IMG/VR virus record: IMGVR_UViG_3300049793_000181
Coordinates: 1-20,962 of that record
Direction: 5' to 3' (one strand)
Length of the DNA: 20,962 bases
Origin: a virus
Both the position numbers and the translations under genes were made by a program. This document shows, one piece after another, positions 1,109 to 20,962 of this stretch. The notes under the pieces were generated by a model that saw nothing but the letters and a program-made list of their open reading frames with translations, did not search any database and had not been told where the DNA came from. The stretch's first letter is position 1; each line of letters opens with the position of its first letter.

Positions 1109-1222
1109 GCTGAGGGTCGATTCGACCGGCGGGAAATAGAGGCCCGCCACGGGGCGCGGCGGGAGGGGGTAGGCGAGGGTAGCCGGAGAGGGTTTGCGAG
1201 GCGTGGCGGGGTCGTTCCGGCC
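1109..1222. repeat. Diverged ~115-bp direct repeat, copy A
   Basis: Positions 1109-1146 match 18611-18648 at 36 of 38 bases, including ACCGGCGGGAAATAGAGG. The end, 1192-1222 (GTTTG..., ...CGTTCCGGCC), matches 18697-18725, while the middle has diverged. Positions 1151-1179 hold four G tracts with short loops (a G-quadruplex-type motif). The element sits in the non-coding gap between the converging units, flanked by hairpin copies 1 and 2. Confidence 0.8.
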
Positions 1223-1264
1223 CCCCAATTCGATCCGCCGGAGACGCCCCCAGCTGGCCGTTAC

Positions 1265-1309
1265 AATTCCACCGCCGCGTTACCAGCTAGTAACGCGGCC
1301 ATAGAACTA
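1265..1309. repeat. Dispersed hairpin repeat, copy 2
   Basis: Core CCGCGTTAC-CAGCTA-GTAACGCGG at 1275-1298. The outer left arm (AATTCCACCG) is preserved, but the outer right arm has drifted to the CCATAGAACT form. The stop codon of the polymerase gene (TAG on the - strand, 1307-1309) directly abuts the element. Confidence 0.92.
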
Positions 1310-3691
1310 GCCACACGATCCCCAACTCTGGGTAGAGCTCACAACTCCCACTGGAATTACCAGTGGAGTCTCGTATGGCAGTACAATCTGGCTTTCCTCC
1401 ACGATCCGACGCAGTGCCCAATCCCCATGATGGGTTTGGAATTGGCCAGCGAGAGAATCGTGTACCTGTAGCAGTACCTCGACCTCTGACAAATTGCGGT
1501 CGATGTTGACGTAGGCCCGGTTGATCAGGCAGCCCACGGTTGACTGGGGAATCCACGCCACGGCCTGATTAAAGATATTCCCCTCAATCCTGTCGAAGAA
1601 GTGGAACTTGTACCCGAACACATTTTGAATCCAGCGACGTTTCGACACTTGCTCTTTGATGTCGTCTTGCCACTGCTTAATCTCAGGGCACAAACCGTAG
1701 TACCAGCGTTGAATCCTCTCCACCTCATGCACAATCAGGCCGATACGAGGGCTGATTCCTTCGGCAGTCCCCAGGTAGTTCGTACCATGGCAGAGAGCCT
1801 TAAACATTCTATACTCCCTGGGATGTGAATTCTTGCTCATTGTCTGATCCTTGTAGTACTCCTTCATCACCTCCACATACGGTTTCCTTCCAGCCGCAAA
1901 CTGCTCAAGCATCCACTTGCATCCGCTTTCCCCAGTGACCACTCGTAAATCTGCACTATCCAAGTCGATGTCGAAGAAAGTGTGCCCTGGGTCCGGAATG
2001 TACAGAGTACGGATGTTGGGGAGTTCAAGACCTTCATCCTCCGTTTCACCTCCTTTTGGAATGTTCTGGAGGTTAGCACCTGTGCCAAAAGCATTCTTAG
2101 CGGAAGCGAAGCGATAGGTATCGGTTCCGCATACGTTGAATGATGTTCGCATGCGTCCATCAGTGTCCAATGGGGCTGAAACAAAGGTACTATGGAAGAC
2201 CCCAAGAGAACGAAGTTCAGAGATTTTCCGGGTAACTGGTGCGAGGATTGGCTCTCGGGCAGCGATACGGTGAAGGGCTTCATCATCGGTAGTTACCCCT
2301 TTTGTCTTGCGGTTGATGATGGGCTTGATGCCCATCTGGCGATAGAAGAAGTCCGCCATTTGCTTTGGGGACTTGATGTTCAGAGCAGTGCCGGTGACGT
2401 CGAGCATCCAGGCTTCGCGGGAGGCGACTTCGCGCTGGAGCTCAAAGGAGAACTCCGCACGGCGCTTCATGTCCACGCGCAGGCCCCGATTCATGGTTTT
2501 GAGGACCACGGGGGCGAGGGCTTGCTGGAAGTCATCGACAGATTGCATTCCGAGACCCTGTACGACTTTGCAGAGGACTTCCTCAATGGCCAAGGTCCGC
2601 ACGGCGTCGGTGCAATTGTAAATCCAGTACTTGTCCTCACCTTCTCCTTTGGGGCCTTCCGTCCAGTTGGTGCGGTCGTCTTTCCAGTAGAGATGATCGT
2701 CGAGGTACATGGAGGAAAGGAACGCAAGGTTCTTTTCGAGGTTGCTGAAGCACGAGTGCTGCTGGATCATCGTGTCCTTTACGGAAGGGCAGATGAAGTG
2801 CCACCAGCGGTAGAAGTACTGCGCGTCGTAGTTCCAGTTCTGGCCTACGATAGTAACCTTTTGACAGAGTTGATAGATGTCGTAGACGAGAGAAGATTCT
2901 TCGGCTTCAGTCCAATATCCGCTTGGATTACTACTTTGCATAAATGGGAGGCAGAAAGCCTCAGTGTTAGATCGGGCGAAGGCAATACAAGATATATGTC
3001 CTGCTCGGGTTTCAATGTCTCCACCAACCTTAAGACGGCGGCCTTCAGCGAGGGCGACATCTGCTTCAGCGATGTAAGCGGCAAGTTTATTTTTGGCTTC
3101 TTCATAAGAGGGCCTGATTAAGAAGTTGTACTTCGGACGTCGGATTTCAGGAAAAGCACTCTCACGCTTCGCCCTTCGCAGATCATGCACGATCAGCGGG
3201 CGCAGCCGCCATTGAATCACGGCTTGTGCCGGATTGAGCGTCGGAATAACCTTCACCCCCGGCACCAGTGTGCTATCCATGATACTGCTGCGCCAGCTAC
3301 CCGCGCCCCACTCTCCGGTCAGTGCCCAAAGAGCAAGGTTGCCGAAGGCAATAACCACGTTTGGGCGAATGCGTTCCACTTCACCACGGAGGCCTTCAAT
3401 TCCAGCCACCACAGATGGAAGTACATGCTTGCCATTGTACAGGCGGTGTTCATGGGTGATGTCCTTTCTCTTGAGGGCCATGATGGTTTCCAAGCGGGAT
3501 TGCTGGACCCGATCCTTCATGACCATTGTGACGTAGCAGTCTTCGAAGAAGAAGCCAGCTTCTTTTATCATCTTGCGGAGTTCATACCCCGGACCTCCGA
3601 CGAATGGGGCGGAGTTCAAGAGGTCTTGTTCGTGGGGGAACTCACCGACGAGCATGATGCGGGCTGAGTGCGGGCCGGTAGGTACGATCAT
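1307..3691 (-). CDS. Uracil-DNA-glycosylase-like / 3'-5' exonuclease / family A DNA polymerase fusion
   Basis: A 794-residue phage replicative polymerase. Residues ~10-180 resemble the uracil-DNA glycosylase superfamily (RIMLVGEFPHEQ, PFVGGPG, NVVIAFGNLALWAL, TLNPAQA). Residues ~220-375 form a DEDDy proofreading exonuclease: GDIET (D225/E227), NWNYDA (N285/D289) and YNCTD (Y358/D362). The rest is Pol I-like: motif A FDIDLDSADLR (~573-583), a motif B region RMFKALCHGTNY (~628-639) and motif C QVHDS (742-746). It should copy phage DNA; the N-terminal domain may sense or excise uracil, or may be structural. The canonical first glycosylase motif GEaPG reads GEFPH here, so catalysis by that domain is uncertain. 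The ATG overlaps the upstream stop (ATGA), with AAGGTG as ribosome site. It is the last gene of the leftmost - strand unit. Confidence 0.93.
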   Translation of the reverse strand: MIVPTGPHSARIMLVGEFPHEQDLLNSAPFVGGPGYELRKMIKEAGFFFEDCYVTMVMKDRVQQSRLETIMALKRKDITHEHRLYNGKHVLPSVVAGIEGLRGEVERIRPNVVIAFGNLALWALTGEWGAGSWRSSIMDSTLVPGVKVIPTLNPAQAVIQWRLRPLIVHDLRRAKRESAFPEIRRPKYNFLIRPSYEEAKNKLAAYIAEADVALAEGRRLKVGGDIETRAGHISCIAFARSNTEAFCLPFMQSSNPSGYWTEAEESSLVYDIYQLCQKVTIVGQNWNYDAQYFYRWWHFICPSVKDTMIQQHSCFSNLEKNLAFLSSMYLDDHLYWKDDRTNWTEGPKGEGEDKYWIYNCTDAVRTLAIEEVLCKVVQGLGMQSVDDFQQALAPVVLKTMNRGLRVDMKRRAEFSFELQREVASREAWMLDVTGTALNIKSPKQMADFFYRQMGIKPIINRKTKGVTTDDEALHRIAAREPILAPVTRKISELRSLGVFHSTFVSAPLDTDGRMRTSFNVCGTDTYRFASAKNAFGTGANLQNIPKGGETEDEGLELPNIRTLYIPDPGHTFFDIDLDSADLRVVTGESGCKWMLEQFAAGRKPYVEVMKEYYKDQTMSKNSHPREYRMFKALCHGTNYLGTAEGISPRIGLIVHEVERIQRWYYGLCPEIKQWQDDIKEQVSKRRWIQNVFGYKFHFFDRIEGNIFNQAVAWIPQSTVGCLINRAYVNIDRNLSEVEVLLQVHDSLAGQFQTHHGDWALRRIVEESQIVLPYETPLVIPVGVVSSTQSWGSCG

Positions 3692-3870
3692 GCCGGCACC
3701 TTCGTCTTACCACGGCATACCGGGCACACACGGCTTACGCCGAGACGTCTTTTGCCGACAAACAATGTGCCGGTGCCGTAGCAGTTCTTGCACAGCACCA
3801 GCTGCACTGGGAGGGTTCCTTCCGCGAGCTTCGAGTTGTCGTTGCTGCGGCTAGCTTGTTCGTTGCTCAT
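3688..3870 (-). CDS. 60-residue zinc-finger-like protein
   Basis: A short protein with two Cys pairs, CKNCYGTG and CPVCRGK, the CxxCxGxG pattern of DnaJ-type zinc-binding knuckles, preceded by a polar Ser/Asn-rich N-terminus. A strong ribosome site (AAGGAG) lies 9 nt before the ATG at 3870, and the stop overlaps the polymerase start by 4 nt, so the two are probably co-translated. Such peptides are common beside phage replication genes. DNA, RNA or protein binding are all possible; the specific role is unknown. Confidence 0.75.
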   Translation of the reverse strand: MSNEQASRSNDNSKLAEGTLPVQLVLCKNCYGTGTLFVGKRRLGVSRVCPVCRGKTKVPA

Positions 3871-3888
3871 TGTCGTTGCTCCTTCTGG

Positions 3889-5277
3889 TTAGCCCATCAG
3901 GCCTTTGAGTTCTGCCGCCAGTGCTCCGCCGTCTGTGACATCCCGGGGCAAGCTCAGGTCTTTGAGTCGCTGATACCCCATCGCGTAGTATTCCGGGTTC
4001 ATTTCCAGGCCAATCGCTTTGCACTTCATTTCGTCGGCCGCAGGGAAGATCGTGCCGCTGCCGCTGAAGCTGTCGAGGATGACATCGCCGGGCTTGACGC
4101 TACGCTGCAAGAGCTGCACGTACAGCCCGACAGGTTTCTGTGCGCCGTGCGTGGTGTTCGCATCGGCGTAAGAGGTGAGGACGTCCGGGTAGATCGCGGT
4201 GGTCTTTTTATGCCCCTTGATGGCATAGAGCAGGGTTTCGTACTGGCGACGCGGGCCTTCGAAAGGCAGGGGTACACGACCGCTCCCGGGTTTGGTGCAG
4301 ATAAAAGGTGTGCGGAACACATACCAGCCGGCGTTCTGCATCATCGCCTTGAGCTCGTGGAAGTTATCAATATCACAGAAGACATAGGCATGAGCTTCAC
4401 GCTTTGCGATGCGATAACTCAACGGAGCCCAGGCTGCCATCAGTGCTTTCCAGCCGTCATAGTCGTCTTTGTAGTGGTGTTCGTTGTTGGCCAGACGACC
4501 GCCGCCACCATCACCGAAAGTATCAGCACCCATACCGTAAGGAGGGTCAGTAAGAACCACATCGACGCTTTCCGCGTCCGCTGACGCCATCCACTGGAGA
4601 CAGTTGACATTGAACGCTTCGTGGATGCCGGAGGTGTGAACGGCGCCGACCGTTGCAGCGAGGCGAACGTTCTGCTGTTGGACTTCTTGCCTCTTGATGA
4701 TTTTGAATGCTTCATTGGTGTCTTTCGCTTTAGCGACTTCAGGGTTGTCGAGGTACTTCGAGACGATGATCTGGCGGCGCACGGCTTCTTGGTTGGAGCC
4801 GTCGCTGGAGCCCCGAACTTCCACGGCGGTATCAGCGACGGCGTGAACGCGGCCCTCGGCTTGGGCTTGCTGGGAACGGATGCGGTGGAGCTTGGCGATC
4901 GCAGCGGATTCTTCCTGCCACGACAGGGCTTCCCGGCGGATGTTTTCTTCGAGCTCGGCTTCTTCGGCCTGGAGGGGGGTGAGGTCGCCGAGGTTGGAGT
5001 AGGGGACGTAGCCTTCCGGGACGGCTTGGTTGTTGTAGCGCAGGGTGCCGCCGAGAGCCCAGAGGTTGGAAATGGCTTTGAGCCGGGTTTCCCCGGCGAC
5101 GAGAATTTTCCGAACGGGCTCACCAGGGGCATCACGCATCACCGGGGCGTGGAGTAGGCCCTTGGTGAGGATGCCTTCGGACATTTCCTGGATGAACTCC
5201 GGCTTGAAGTCCTTGCGCTGGCGATCACCCTCGATAATGATGTCAGTGAGCTTAATTAGTTGGGGGAGTGAGGACAC
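3889..5277 (-). CDS. ParB/KorB-like N-terminal domain fused to DNA methyltransferase
   Basis: A 462-residue fusion. Residues ~7-135 are ParB-like (DRQRKDF, then VAGETRLKAIS, an equivalent of the GERRxxA box, then EENIRREALSWQEE), followed by a probable helix-turn-helix-like stretch to ~200. Residues ~220-440 are an AdoMet-dependent amino-methyltransferase with DPPYG at 244-248 and DSFSGSG at 402-408. The catalytic motif preceding the AdoMet motif indicates the beta class, and DPPY favours N6-adenine over N4-cytosine. Such fusions are known in phages and may modify phage DNA against host restriction. GTG start at 5277 with GAAAGG about 8 nt upstream; no ATG lies near the domain start. A - strand terminator (5320-5348) lies just upstream, so expression may depend on read-through. 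Confidence 0.92.
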   Translation of the reverse strand: MSSLPQLIKLTDIIIEGDRQRKDFKPEFIQEMSEGILTKGLLHAPVMRDAPGEPVRKILVAGETRLKAISNLWALGGTLRYNNQAVPEGYVPYSNLGDLTPLQAEEAELEENIRREALSWQEESAAIAKLHRIRSQQAQAEGRVHAVADTAVEVRGSSDGSNQEAVRRQIIVSKYLDNPEVAKAKDTNEAFKIIKRQEVQQQNVRLAATVGAVHTSGIHEAFNVNCLQWMASADAESVDVVLTDPPYGMGADTFGDGGGGRLANNEHHYKDDYDGWKALMAAWAPLSYRIAKREAHAYVFCDIDNFHELKAMMQNAGWYVFRTPFICTKPGSGRVPLPFEGPRRQYETLLYAIKGHKKTTAIYPDVLTSYADANTTHGAQKPVGLYVQLLQRSVKPGDVILDSFSGSGTIFPAADEMKCKAIGLEMNPEYYAMGYQRLKDLSLPRDVTDGGALAAELKGLMG

Positions 5278-11073: not shown

Positions 11074-11102
11074 ACTATAACGAGGGGGTGGCCAGTAGTC
11101 AC
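11074..11102 (-). promoter_or_regulatory. Sigma-70-type promoter of the nuclease/ATPase operon
   Basis: On the - strand GTGACT (11102-11097), 17 nt, TATAGT (11079-11074). The expected start near 11067 falls inside the arm of hairpin copy 4. The first gene starts at 11003. Confidence 0.6.
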
Positions 11103-14966: not shown

Positions 14967-15743
14967 TTACTGGGAAACTTCAATCTTGGCACAGAGAAGG
15001 CGGAGCTGTTTTTCTTGCGCGGCCCGTGCGGTGGCCCCTGCGGTGGCCCCTGCGGTGGCCCGTGCGGCGGCCCCTGCGGCCCCTGCGGCCCCTGCGGCCC
15101 CTGCGGCCGCTGCGGCCCGTGCGGTGGCCCCTGCGGCCCCTGCGGCGGCCCCTGCGGCCCCTGCGGCCCATGCGGCCCCTGCGGCGGCCGCTGCGGCCCG
15201 TGCGGTGGCCCCTGCGGTGGCCCGTGCGGCGGCCCCTGCGGCCCCTGCGGCCCATGCGGCCCCTGCGGCGGCCGCTGCGGCGGCCCCTGCGGTGGCCCCT
15301 GCGGTGGCCCATGCGGTGGCCCCTGCGGCCCATGCGGCCCCTGCGGCGGCCTCTGCGGCGGCCTCTGCGGCGGCCTCTGCGGTGGCCCGTGCGGTGGCCC
15401 GTGCGGCGGCCCGTGCGGCGGCCTCTGCGGCGTCCAGTTCCTCTGCAGTCGCCCCTCCTTCGGCAAAAGATTCTGCCACAACCAGCACTCTTTTACTTCT
15501 TTCATCTGTCATCAGGTGCTCGACTTGCCGAGCACACCACACAGCATAAAGTCGAATTTCTTTGTCATGCCCCTGCACTGCCTGCAAACACCACAGCGCG
15601 TCTTCCAGCCCGTTGCTGTCGAGAACCTGTACAATGCTGACAGGAGCGTCATCTGCTGCGGTTTTACCGAGAGTGCGCAGGAGTTTTTCCCAGCCGCTTG
15701 CGCAAGGGGAACAGGCGCGAATTTGAGCGAGTGTGGTGTACAT
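14967..15743 (-). CDS. Ala-repeat phage protein with conserved N-terminal domain (258 aa)
   Basis: Residues 1-~105 form a compact domain with [32 protein letters not shown] and [18 protein letters not shown], an opening recognised from a common phage family that carries an Ala-rich tail. Residues ~106-243 are an expansion of 3- and 4-residue units ([17 protein letters not shown]), probably a long helix, followed by a polar cap ([16 protein letters not shown]). The start at 15743 has AGAGG about 8 nt upstream; the longer frame to 15797 would run across the promoter. The function of the family is unknown. The repeat DNA (about 15020-15430) lacks stop codons in other frames as well, giving spurious open frames on the + strand. 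Confidence 0.82.
15020..15431. repeat. Interspersed 9/12-nt tandem repeat array
   Basis: About 410 bp made of modules TGCGGCCCC (9 nt) and TGCGGYGGCCCC (12 nt), with S/T variants, in irregular order. All unit lengths are multiples of three, so expansion and contraction preserve the - strand frame encoding the Ala-rich tail. GC content is extreme compared with the flanks. Confidence 0.93.
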
Positions 15744-15795
15744 ATGAGAGCCTCTTTTGGGTGAGGGTGACGGCCATTCCGTCATCCATGCAACC

Positions 15796-15801
15796 ATTAT
15801 A
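15796..15801 (-). promoter_or_regulatory. Probable -10 element upstream of the Ala-repeat gene
   Basis: A consensus TATAAT followed by G on the - strand, about 50 nt before the start at 15743. No good -35 hexamer is visible 16-18 nt upstream, so it is either an activator-dependent promoter or a chance match. Confidence 0.5.
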
Positions 15802-17237: not shown

Positions 17238-17560
17238 AGTAGCAACCCGTGCACCGCGAAAACTCCTTCGCGGCTGTTTTGGTGGTACACTGGGAGCTTC
17301 AAGTTAACGAACAGAGTTCGTTCAGTTTGAGCCCCCCAGCTGCTACCCCAGCCGGAAAGCATCACTACGGCGTCTGGTTTGCCCTCACCGATAAGGCGCA
17401 GAGCACTGAACATGTAGTCGAGCCAGGAAGCTTCGGGGGGGCTTTCGGCTGGGTTTAGCACAGTGTGCCCGGCCGTGCGCAAAGCAGCTGCAGCCGCGTG
17501 AAACGCGGGGTAGTTGGAATCAGGAAGGCCAGACATTGGGCCTGCGAGGTAGAGGATCAT
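17234..17560 (-). CDS. DUF4406 protein (nucleoside 2-deoxyribosyltransferase-like)
   Basis: 108 residues. YLAGPMSGLPDSNYPAFHAA is the DUF4406 N-terminal signature, followed by LRTAGHTVLNPAE and a PDAVVMLSGWGSSWGAQTE region matching the DAVVML.GWE.S.GA..E segment of nucleoside deoxyribosyltransferase-like folds. It may salvage or modify nucleotides; activity is unproven for the family. The usual Glu after GW is Gly here (GWGSS), so catalysis may be altered. The ATG at 17560 overlaps the upstream stop (ATGA). Confidence 0.87.
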   Translation of the reverse strand: MILYLAGPMSGLPDSNYPAFHAAAAALRTAGHTVLNPAESPPEASWLDYMFSALRLIGEGKPDAVVMLSGWGSSWGAQTERTLFVNLKLPVYHQNSREGVFAVHGLLL

Positions 17561-18150
17561 GGCTGTGGGCCCTCACTGTTAGTGACTGCGTTGGTGAGGT
17601 CGATGCAGAGCTGGTTGCGGCTCTCTAGTGGACCCGCTGAGCACAGGACGGAATAGACTATATCGGCTATTCCTTCACGGAAAAGGCTGATGGCTTTAGC
17701 TTTTACAAGGGAAAGTTCGGCGCGGGCCGCGTCACGCTCACCGATAACCCCTTCAAGGGCATCGGCTAGAGCCTGTAGTCGCTGAATGCTCTTTACGGCA
17801 CATTCCCGTCCGATAGAGGAGCGACTGTCCATTGCGGGATCGGCAAGCTTCAGCGCCTCCCAGACAGCGCGCCAAGCCTTTTCGCAAGACTGCAGACGGG
17901 CGACTTCGTCCTCATCGACAGGCAGTTGAGGCGCCGAACTTTCGCTTGCGAAAGCTAAGGCCGCAAGCACCGCATTGCGCCCCTGCTCAGCCCCCTCAGC
18001 CGTAAGCGCAAAAGCCACAATCAGCAAGTCATCTGCCGTTCCGATAGCGGACCCGAAATCCCCTTCAGCTTCGCGGACAGTCTTTCCGGCCACCGCGCTT
18101 TTGTGTAATGCTTTGGCTTTCGCAAGCGAAAGTTCGTGTTCAGGTGTCAT
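17557..18150 (-). CDS. 197-residue Ala-rich helical protein with internal repeat
   Basis: Highly helical, rich in Ala/Glu/Leu. HELSLAKAKALHKSA at the N-terminus and AELSLVKAKAISLF near residue 145 are copies of one segment; between them AALAFASESSAPQ is encoded by the same DNA repeat in the opposite orientation. Other parts include IGTADDLLIVAFAL and SCEKAWRAVWEALKLAD. A very strong ribosome site (GGAGG) lies 5 nt before the ATG at 18150. It is the first gene after hairpin copy 6 and the large non-coding region. No family recognised. Confidence 0.75.
   Translation of the reverse strand: MTPEHELSLAKAKALHKSAVAGKTVREAEGDFGSAIGTADDLLIVAFALTAEGAEQGRNAVLAALAFASESSAPQLPVDEDEVARLQSCEKAWRAVWEALKLADPAMDSRSSIGRECAVKSIQRLQALADALEGVIGERDAARAELSLVKAKAISLFREGIADIVYSVLCSAGPLESRNQLCIDLTNAVTNSEGPQP
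17692..17718. repeat. 26-nt near-palindromic intragenic repeat, copy (d)
   Basis: GGCTTTAGCTTTTACAAGGG plus AAAGTTC on the + strand, a diverged copy in the same orientation as copy (c). It encodes ELSLVKAKA on the - strand. Confidence 0.65.
17936..17964. repeat. 26-nt near-palindromic intragenic repeat, copy (b)
   Basis: GAACTTTCGCTTGCGAAAGC plus TAAGGCCGC on the + strand, inverted relative to copy (c). The central CTTTCGC-TT-GCGAAAG is a perfect palindrome apart from its two-base centre. It encodes ALAFASESS on the - strand. Confidence 0.78.
18110..18135. repeat. 26-nt near-palindromic intragenic repeat, copy (c)
   Basis: GCTTTGGCTTTCGCAAGCGA plus AAGTTC on the + strand; its reverse complement matches copy (b) closely. 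It encodes ELSLAKAKA at the N-terminus of the 197-residue protein. Confidence 0.78.
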
Positions 18151-18161
18151 TCAAGCCTCCA

Positions 18162-18191
18162 ATTTAGTCGTCACTGGCCCTACGAGGTCAA
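18162..18191 (-). promoter_or_regulatory. Possible promoter of the 18150 unit
   Basis: On the - strand TTGACC (18191-18186), 18 nt, CTAAAT (18167-18162), very close to the start codon at 18150. The short leader would leave only the ribosome site, so it is a tentative call. Confidence 0.35.
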
Positions 18192-18231
18192 TTCTACGGT
18201 CGCGTTACCGGCTAGTAACGCGCCGGTGGAA
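18190..18231. repeat. Dispersed hairpin repeat, copy 6
   Basis: Core CGCGTTAC-CGGCTA-GTAACGCG at 18201-18222; the outer arms AATTCTACGG and CCGGTGGAAC are only partly complementary. It lies at the left edge of the large non-coding region. Confidence 0.92.
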
Positions 18232-18376
18232 CCCTCCGGCCATGTTCAAACCCTACCCTACCGCACCCCAGCAGTCACGCTTCCGCAGCAACAACTGCGC
18301 CCGCAACCCCGCACCGCAACGCGCTCAGCCCTCGCGTGCGCTCACGCAGCGCCCAAGCGTCGCGCCGGTGCTCGCG

Positions 18377-18392
18377 CTGTTTTTAAAAACAG
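18377..18392. repeat. AT-rich perfect palindrome
   Basis: CTGTTTTTAAAAACAG, a 16-bp perfect dyad in a very GC-rich setting; a possible easily melted or protein-bound site in the candidate control region. Confidence 0.85.
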
Positions 18393-18441
18393 CCCCCTCA
18401 CCCCTAGCGAAATTGGGATTGGGCCGCACTGACTCGGCGCA

Positions 18442-18573
18442 CAGCTAACAGCAATGCGGCGACGGGGCAGCGGTGCAAAAGCTATAGCTGTAGCGCGGTG
18501 CGCCCCTCGTAACCCGGCATTCCGACGTAGCGACTTGCTATCAGCTAACAGGCGTGCGCGCGAGAGGCAGCGG
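18442..18573. repeat. Pair of ~32-nt direct repeats, 100-bp period
   Basis: 18442-18473 and 18542-18573 both begin CAGCTAACAG and end GGCAGCGG with a diverged middle. The spacing is exactly 100 bp. Confidence 0.7.
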
Positions 18574-18610
18574 CGGGGCGTGGGGGCGGTGGGGCGAGGG
18601 GAAGGGGGAG

Positions 18611-18725
18611 GCTGAGGGGCGATTCCACCGGCGGGAAATAGAGGCCCGTGGCGCGGTTTTCGGGGGTGGCTGGTAGGTCGCTATTCCCGAGGGGGCGTTT
18701 GAGGCACGGCGGGGGCGTTCCGGCC
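18611..18725. repeat. Diverged ~115-bp direct repeat, copy B
   Basis: 18611-18648 matches 1109-1146 (36 of 38), and 18697-18725 matches 1192-1222 with small gaps. Preceded immediately by a six-tract G-quadruplex-type motif (18575-18619). Confidence 0.8.
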
Positions 18726-18769
18726 GGAATTGAGGCATTGCCGCCCGCCGTCGGACCTCTGCAAACACG

Positions 18770-18789
18770 AAAACCGCCCGGAGGCGGTT
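18770..18789 (-). terminator. Intrinsic terminator after the rightmost unit
   Basis: Read on the - strand: AACCGCC-TCCG-GGCGGTT, then TTCG (a T4 run including stem bases). It closes the 20633-18808 unit before the non-coding region. Confidence 0.75.
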
Positions 18790-18807
18790 CTGCGGCCCGA
18801 TAACGCC

Positions 18808-19104
18808 TCAGCGGATAGGCAAATACACCTTTTGAGCGATTTGGCGCTTGATAGCCATAGCATACGCTAGGGCCGTCATCGAGTCCGTATGAGGGTTTGC
18901 CGTCAGGCGCTCGAGTTCGTTCATCTGCGCGATGCGGATGGGGATTACCGAAAGATGATAGACGACGGTGGCTTCTGGAAGGTCGTCTCGTAACATGAGG
19001 GCAAAATCCTTGCGAATGGCGGTGATTTTATCGGAGTCGCCCTCACAGGATTCGATGGCGTATGCGAGGGCGCGATTGACTGCGCGAGTAGTAGTAGTGG
19101 TCAT
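18808..19104 (-). CDS. 98-residue helical phage protein
   Basis: MTTTTTRAVNRALAYAIESC followed by helices (TAIRKDFALMLRDDL, VVYHLSVIPIRIAQMNELERL) and a basic end (IKRQIAQKVYLPIR). The start at 19104 has an AAGGGG site; a longer in-frame start lies before the upstream stop and lacks a site. No family recognised. Last gene of the rightmost unit, followed by a terminator. Confidence 0.72.
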   Translation of the reverse strand: MTTTTTRAVNRALAYAIESCEGDSDKITAIRKDFALMLRDDLPEATVVYHLSVIPIRIAQMNELERLTANPHTDSMTALAYAMAIKRQIAQKVYLPIR

Positions 19105-19120
19105 GGTGAGGCCCCTTCGA

Positions 19121-19357
19121 TCAAGATTGCCGCATTGCAAGCGGCGGATTGAGTGGTTTGCACGTCACGATGCGGACAGCTGCAAGGCCGCATTCGTGGA
19201 GCGTTGCGAGGGCTTCCGTCGCCTCGCCGTTGTAGTATTGCGCGGAAGGGTTGAGGAGGACGACGGCCTTATGGCGGGGGCTGGTCGCAACCGTTGAGCC
19301 GTCCGGGGTGAGACTGTCGATGTGGTACGTGACGGCGAAGGCGTATGCGGGGCGCAT
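19121..19357 (-). CDS. 78-residue phage protein of unknown function
   Basis: Begins MRPAYAFAVTYHIDSLTPDG and continues with AVVLLNPSAQYYNGEATEAL and LHECGLAAVRIVTC, an alternating strand/helix pattern (possible small alpha/beta fold). The ATG at 19357 lies 2 nt beyond the upstream stop, with GGAG inside the preceding gene. The longer ORF to 19528 is a shadow of the upstream gene and is rejected. Function unknown. Confidence 0.7.
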   Translation of the reverse strand: MRPAYAFAVTYHIDSLTPDGSTVATSPRHKAVVLLNPSAQYYNGEATEALATLHECGLAAVRIVTCKPLNPPLAMRQS

Positions 19358-20837: not shown

Positions 20838-20962
20838 CCCGGCCCCCCCGGCCCATGCTACGCGACGAGGTCAGGTCGCGTGATGGGGGAGTGGGGGAGA
20901 GGGACGTGGGGCATGACCGCACCACCGCCCCCCCCCCCTCCCTAATCCAACACCGCGCCCGC
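20838..20962. other. Non-coding right edge with G and C tracts
   Basis: No gene is visible. Positions 20885-20911 contain four G tracts with loops of 3-4 nt (a G-quadruplex-type motif on the + strand), followed by an 11-C run at 20928-20938. It resembles the G-rich non-coding regions at 1.1 and 18.6 kb and may be the start of another control region beyond the window. Confidence 0.6.

Follow-up and report, generated by a model that had tools for sequence, protein, structure and literature searches.

A syntenic intergenic region, probably a transcription boundary, in the apparent early arm of a podovirus-like uncultured phage

The intergenic region at positions 18150-18808 of the window (the whole stretch of DNA that was analysed, a virus record of 20,962 bases) is probably, if not securely, a transcription boundary and control region between two operons of a leftward early arm. 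The anatomy of the region, its synteny, two copies of a conserved box, a conserved promoter-like spacing and a family of dyads were observed directly in the sequences compared, from which promoter activity, binding of a regulator and a role in termination are predicted. The sequence-only reading had proposed a replication origin or a master control region at this place. The latter holds in a modest sense, namely as a syntenic, conserved early-operon boundary with a terminator-like hairpin, a promoter-like site and a start-linked dyad. Control region and origin are not strictly exclusive, and one site can be both. The features considered are the following.

18150-18808, minus strand: full extent of the intergenic control region in the leftward early arm (synteny and blastn)
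18190-18235, minus strand: start-linked dyad TTAC-N6-GTAA with imperfect arms of about 16 nt, upstream of the ATG at 18150
18250-18278, minus strand: promoter-like site GTGACT-N17-TAGGGT of the leftward operon (conserved motif and spacing)
18442-18473, plus strand: first copy of a direct repeat (CAGCTAACAGCAATGCGG...), partly conserved in G004
18542-18573, plus strand: second copy of the direct repeat, 100 bp off, not conserved in G004
18575-18614, plus strand: G-tract cluster with a G-quadruplex motif; the early-sense strand is C-rich
18612-18733, minus strand: box copy 1 (nhmmer E 2e-22 with a model that includes this copy; sequence model R1)
18772-18789, minus strand: terminator-like hairpin of the upstream early operon (fold and counterparts in relatives)
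1110-1230, minus strand: box copy 2, in the convergent late/early junction, adjoining the 3' end of pol
1307-3691, leftward: PolA-type DNA polymerase gene (pol)

The record is probably a phage fragment and resembles the early arm of an uncultured podovirus-like phage, the early-arm assignment being taken from the gene order of the annotated relative MW202489 (W01). Short rightward genes occupy the left edge (184 to 1024), after which leftward genes take over. Besides pol, these encode a methyltransferase with a weak ParB-like N-terminus (PF02195, score under its cut-off), a pyrophosphatase, a Sak4-like protein, a PD-(D/E)XK nuclease, a Dda-like helicase and small early proteins. The proteins scanned, which cover the window except for a few short ORFs, included no recognisable initiator, DnaB-type helicase, primase or helicase loader; the rest of the genome lies outside the window. 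The leftward gene at 14967-15797 contains a long periodic repeat of 9 and 12 nt encoding an Ala-rich stretch, and falls in PHROG 18326, of unknown function. For an early family of 204-aa proteins, comparison of an AlphaFold model (pLDDT 79) with the PDB gave no significant match.

Megablast of the whole window against known phages gave no match, and the control region as query gave short matches only (E 0.05). Relatives recognised by their polymerase include G004 (46.5 kb), G002 (48.4 kb) and G001 (47.5 kb). The contigs of these three carry terminal repeats of 123-127 bp, which suggest circular, near-complete assemblies. Gene calls outside the annotated records came from a simple codon-usage script that missed the rightward genes at 184-1024, and some junction details hinge on it; the alignments rest on few sequences. 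The right end of contig G010 (L039) shares sequence with positions 20918-20962 of the window up to a poly-C/G tract of differing length, and the dyad arms of G010 are those of the window. On this sequence evidence, G010 probably represents the opposite flank of the same phage or of a near-identical one.

The control region is bordered by the start codon of a 197-aa gene (17557-18150) and the stop codon of the gene at 18808-19140. Syntenic regions were located in the three apparently complete relatives of 46-48 kb (G004 3785-4397, G002 34880-35455 and G001 26741-27430). The blastn match to G004 reached 73% over 238 bp (E 1e-29), and in alignment with G004 the region is conserved along most of its length. 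Read in the sense of the early transcript, the order common to the relatives is a terminator-like hairpin, a box of about 115 bp, a C-rich stretch, the element GCTGTTTTTAAAA placed at the switch from C-rich to G-rich DNA, a G-rich stretch, a GTGACT promoter-like site, a dyad, a ribosome site and the ATG. On the plus strand the hairpin reads AACCGCC-CGGA-GGCGGTT; on the minus strand it is followed by TTTTCGTGTTT, and the minus-strand stretch folds with -16.6 kcal/mol. Counterparts occupy the same place in G004, G001, L048, L056 and L057; the hairpin is clear in the window, G004 and G001 but hard to discern in G002. A generic promoter and terminator scan did not report the hairpin and returned no sigma-70 promoter on the minus strand of the control region. 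L048 keeps hairpin, box and dyad, without the AT element and the GTGACT promoter.

The box consists of a core, GGGCCTCTATTYC, flanked by GCCGCCACGG-like repeats, and its two copies in the window share the same orientation. A profile built from seven copies recovers all seven, including both of the window and both of G004. Copy 1 is also present in G004, G002, G001 and L048, and outside the model in L056 (E 3e-11) and L057 (E 7e-7). Extension of the model to these two (model R1) gave second copies in G011, the contig of L048, directly after pol, and in G018, the contig of L056, along with weak matches elsewhere. In the window, G004 and G011 the second copy adjoins the end of the pol operon, and in G018 it lies upstream of pol, beside a terminator-like hairpin; in G001 and G002 all that is left near the convergent junction is a degenerate core. 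The copies are 17.5 kb apart in the window and about 17, 15 and 13 kb in G004, G011 and G018, respectively (overall range 13-21 kb). At the threshold of the sequence model the box was not found in MW202489, PP438425 (W02), G007, G008, G009 or G012, and the 22-base core pattern had no exact match in cellular genomes, taken one per species from 84,980 species. In most copies examined, a terminator hairpin or a gene end directly precedes the box. When segments of the early-sense strand of the window were ranked by excess of C over G, ranks 1 and 2 were exactly the two boxes. Depending on the copy, the paired GCCGCCACGG-like motifs form a direct or an inverted arrangement, which fits DNA binding sites better than a stem; as a genome-wide iteron, GCCGCCACGG showed no enrichment outside the box. 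A small ORF on the plus strand of the box, with a GTG behind AGAGG, was dismissed by eye, as it stops after a few codons in G002 and second copies are devoid of the GTG.

The motif GTGACT[AG]CTG occurs twice each in the window, G002 and G001 at syntenic places, and once in exact form in G004, the second site of which has the variant GTGACA. Each site is followed 16-17 nt on by a -10-like hexamer and then by a dyad. The -10 boxes of the control region are poor in the window (TAGGGT) and in G004 (TAGTGT); the sister site at 11074-11102 of the window, GTGACT-N17-TATAGT, displays a better one. The dyads, collected by their TTAC-N6-GTAA core, measure 46 bp. Eight were counted in the window against 0.12 expected (cores at 1062, 1280, 6536, 11045, 15874, 18205, 19631 and 20809), and each complete relative has 14-16. 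Their arms are genome-specific, and their placement is syntenic despite the changed arms. A start codon could be assigned to 48 dyads, and 30 of these sit 34-55 bp before it. A hairpin in the sense RNA was considered and rejected: A.C mismatches (103) exceed G.U pairs (57) in the sense orientation, so that pairing of the sense RNA is not what is kept.

On these grounds, leftward transcription of the first early genes would terminate at the 18772-18789 hairpin and within the C-rich box that follows it. It would start again, toward the replication genes, at a regulated promoter of the GTGACT-N17-TATAxT class, of which the window has two sites. The dyad, which would coincide with the transcription start or lie shortly downstream of it, may be the binding site of a phage-specific regulator. 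The box and the further copy close to the pol operon end would most likely bind a phage or host protein at the boundaries, for insulation or termination. Several observations argue for a transcription boundary: synteny and conservation in G004, G002 and G001, the hairpin or gene end upstream of most boxes, the C-over-G peaks at both boxes of the window, the paired syntenic GTGACT[AG]CTG sites before hexamer and dyad, the narrow placement of 30 of 48 dyads, and the lack of a strong conserved fold in the box. Against it stand the poor -10 boxes of the window and G004 together with the empty sigma-70 scan, a box core conserved beyond the need of a terminator or Rho site, a length of 600 bp, which is long for terminator plus promoter, the loss of AT element and GTGACT promoter in L048, and the second copy of G018 placed upstream of pol instead of after it.

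All the features on which the sequence-only reading had built its proposal exist, further palindromes included. The AT palindrome GCTGTTTTTAAAAACAGC was found at 18376-18393, at the switch from C-rich to G-rich DNA; a palindrome of at least this length turns up in 0.3% of shuffles that preserve the dinucleotides of the region. It is perfect only in the window and G004, while G002 and G001 keep only its left part, CTGTTTTTAAAA. The two direct repeats are indeed spaced by exactly 100 bp, with 72% identity over 32 nt and 10 nt exact. A 32-mer match this good arises in 2.7% of shuffles and a 10-nt exact repeat in 32%, and the repeat is thus only mildly unusual. The switch on the plus strand is located near 18450; it is the strongest local one in the window, in G004 (4070) and in G002 (35150), and the fifth in G001. 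Strand switch and perfect palindrome are unusual. The close G tracts include the G-quadruplex motif at 18575-18601, which has no equivalent in the control regions of G004, G002 or G001. The flanks are also as described, with the terminator-like hairpin in the leftward sense on one side and, on the left, a hairpin copy at 18201-18222, one of eight in the window. Across the sequences compared, conservation does not track the emphasis placed on these elements: the perfect palindrome, the 100-bp-spaced repeats and the G-quadruplex motif are not conserved. What catches the eye in a single genome, here the palindrome, the 100-bp repeat and the G tracts, is not what has been conserved.

As a replication origin, the region would have the box as its initiator-binding site and the AT element of the strand switch as the place of melting; the second box would be a second origin or a fork barrier, by analogy with oriL and oriR of SPP1. 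This is possible but rather unlikely. It is favoured by the two box copies of equal orientation 13-21 kb apart in the window, G004, G011 and G018 (degenerate in G001 and G002), by a C-to-G switch that is locally strongest in three of four genomes, by an AT element kept in four genomes, and by GCCGCCACGG-like motifs that are direct or inverted by copy, as binding sites can be. The occurrence of the box twice per genome, somewhat like oriL and oriR, makes an origin possible. Several results speak against one. Cumulative GC skew, proposed as a check for the whole genome and run on the relatives, placed the extrema of G004, G002 and G001 kilobases away from the region (after detrending and counted from the convergent junction, minimum at 35-42 kb, maximum at 20-27 kb, region at 17-21 kb). 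The AT content over 60 bp is ordinary in the window, where the maximum of the region (47%) is matched or exceeded by 26% of positions; the regions of the relatives attain 57-60%, reached by 0.6-2.3% of their genome positions. The control region of the window gave no match to a DnaA box, IHF site or parS. There is no iteron array, and repeated 9-mers are at shuffle level in the window and G004 (shuffle fractions 0.24 and 0.30, with 0.013 in G002 and 0.08 in G001). Furthermore, no initiator, DnaB or primase was recognised among the proteins scanned, the box was not found at the model threshold in pol relatives such as G007, G008, G009, W01 and W02, and the divergent early/late region of the relatives is richer in repeats, with a conserved AT box in some. 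That region (G002 38776-40023, G001 22132-23253, L048 4810-6128) holds many repeated 9-mers, and also poly-C tracts in G002, G001, L051 and G010 and the AT box TTGTGGAAAATTTGCAAAAATC in G002, G001 and L051. It is a competing origin candidate, at least as origin-like as the control region. Two parS-type palindromes were seen in the early region of G002 (36138-36157 and 38172; AGTGTTCCACGTGGAACACT) and of G001 (24154 and 25794-25813; AGTGTTTCACGTGAAACACT), and none in the window or G004. It is unlikely that the duplicated box binds an unrecognised initiator and marks two replication control sites, with a primary origin on one side of much of the replication-gene module and a second origin or fork barrier on the other. 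If true, this would concern a group of uncultured podovirus-like phages without recognised replication-initiation components. The boxes offer two concrete conserved cis sites to test in uncultured phages that have no recognised initiator.

Other explanations of the box were weighed on the same data. It is distinctly unlikely that the C-rich box serves mainly in Rho-dependent termination, as a rut site that supports the intrinsic terminator where leftward transcripts end. The top early-sense C-over-G segments of the window coincide with both boxes and a terminator hairpin or gene end precedes most copies, but the sequence of rut sites is degenerate, while the box core is near-invariant across distant phages. 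A structured noncoding RNA is very improbable. RNAalifold on both strands and single folds gave a structure that was weak at best: the consensus energy is -4 kcal/mol for the early-sense strand and -10 for the other, with few compensatory changes (3 of 7 pairs in one orientation, 6 of 11 in the other), and single-sequence z-scores are mostly near 0. The second copy of G004 folds stably on both strands (z -3.5 and -2.9), but for most sequences the fold is no more stable than that of their shuffled versions, the arrangement of the paired motif varies between inverted and direct among the copies, and Rfam had no match in the whole window at the gathering threshold. A packaging site (pac/cos) is extremely improbable. 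The box is conserved phage intergenic DNA and the terminal repeats of 123-127 bp were considered in its favour, themselves consistent with circular assemblies; against it, there are two copies per genome, one adjoining pol, and the terminase lies in the late arm of annotated relatives.

Three known systems can be compared with the region. Phage SPP1 has two similarly organised, non-contiguous origins 12-13 kb apart in a genome of about 44 kb (PMC3485210; PMC6316719). The two similar sites are the likeness, the boxes here being 13-21 kb apart. The sites of SPP1, in contrast, are direct repeats bound by gp38 together with an AT-rich unwinding element, oriL lying inside gene 38; here there is no recognised initiator or helicase loader, no clear repeat array and ordinary AT content in the window. 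A literature search on the P4 ori/crr gave nothing usable. With the intergenic operon boundaries of phages the region shares the order of terminator-like hairpin, promoter-like site, operator-like dyad and start codon, and it differs by the extra conserved box of about 115 bp, duplicated elsewhere in the genome. The dyads resemble the ESAS (extended start-associated sequences) of cluster K mycobacteriophages. These are imperfect inverted repeats that precede the starts of many genes, and their consensus varies between related phages while their placement is kept (PMC3203893). Imperfect inverted repeats upstream of many start codons are found in both phage groups. The 13-bp SAS, GGGATAGGAGCCC, was not seen between dyad and start for the dyads listed. 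Unlike ESAS, the dyads here have a fixed 6-nt spacer and a TTAC/GTAA core, and some lie in the convergent junction with no start codon after them. If confirmed, these start-linked, genome-specific dyads would represent ESAS-like regulation outside mycobacteriophages.
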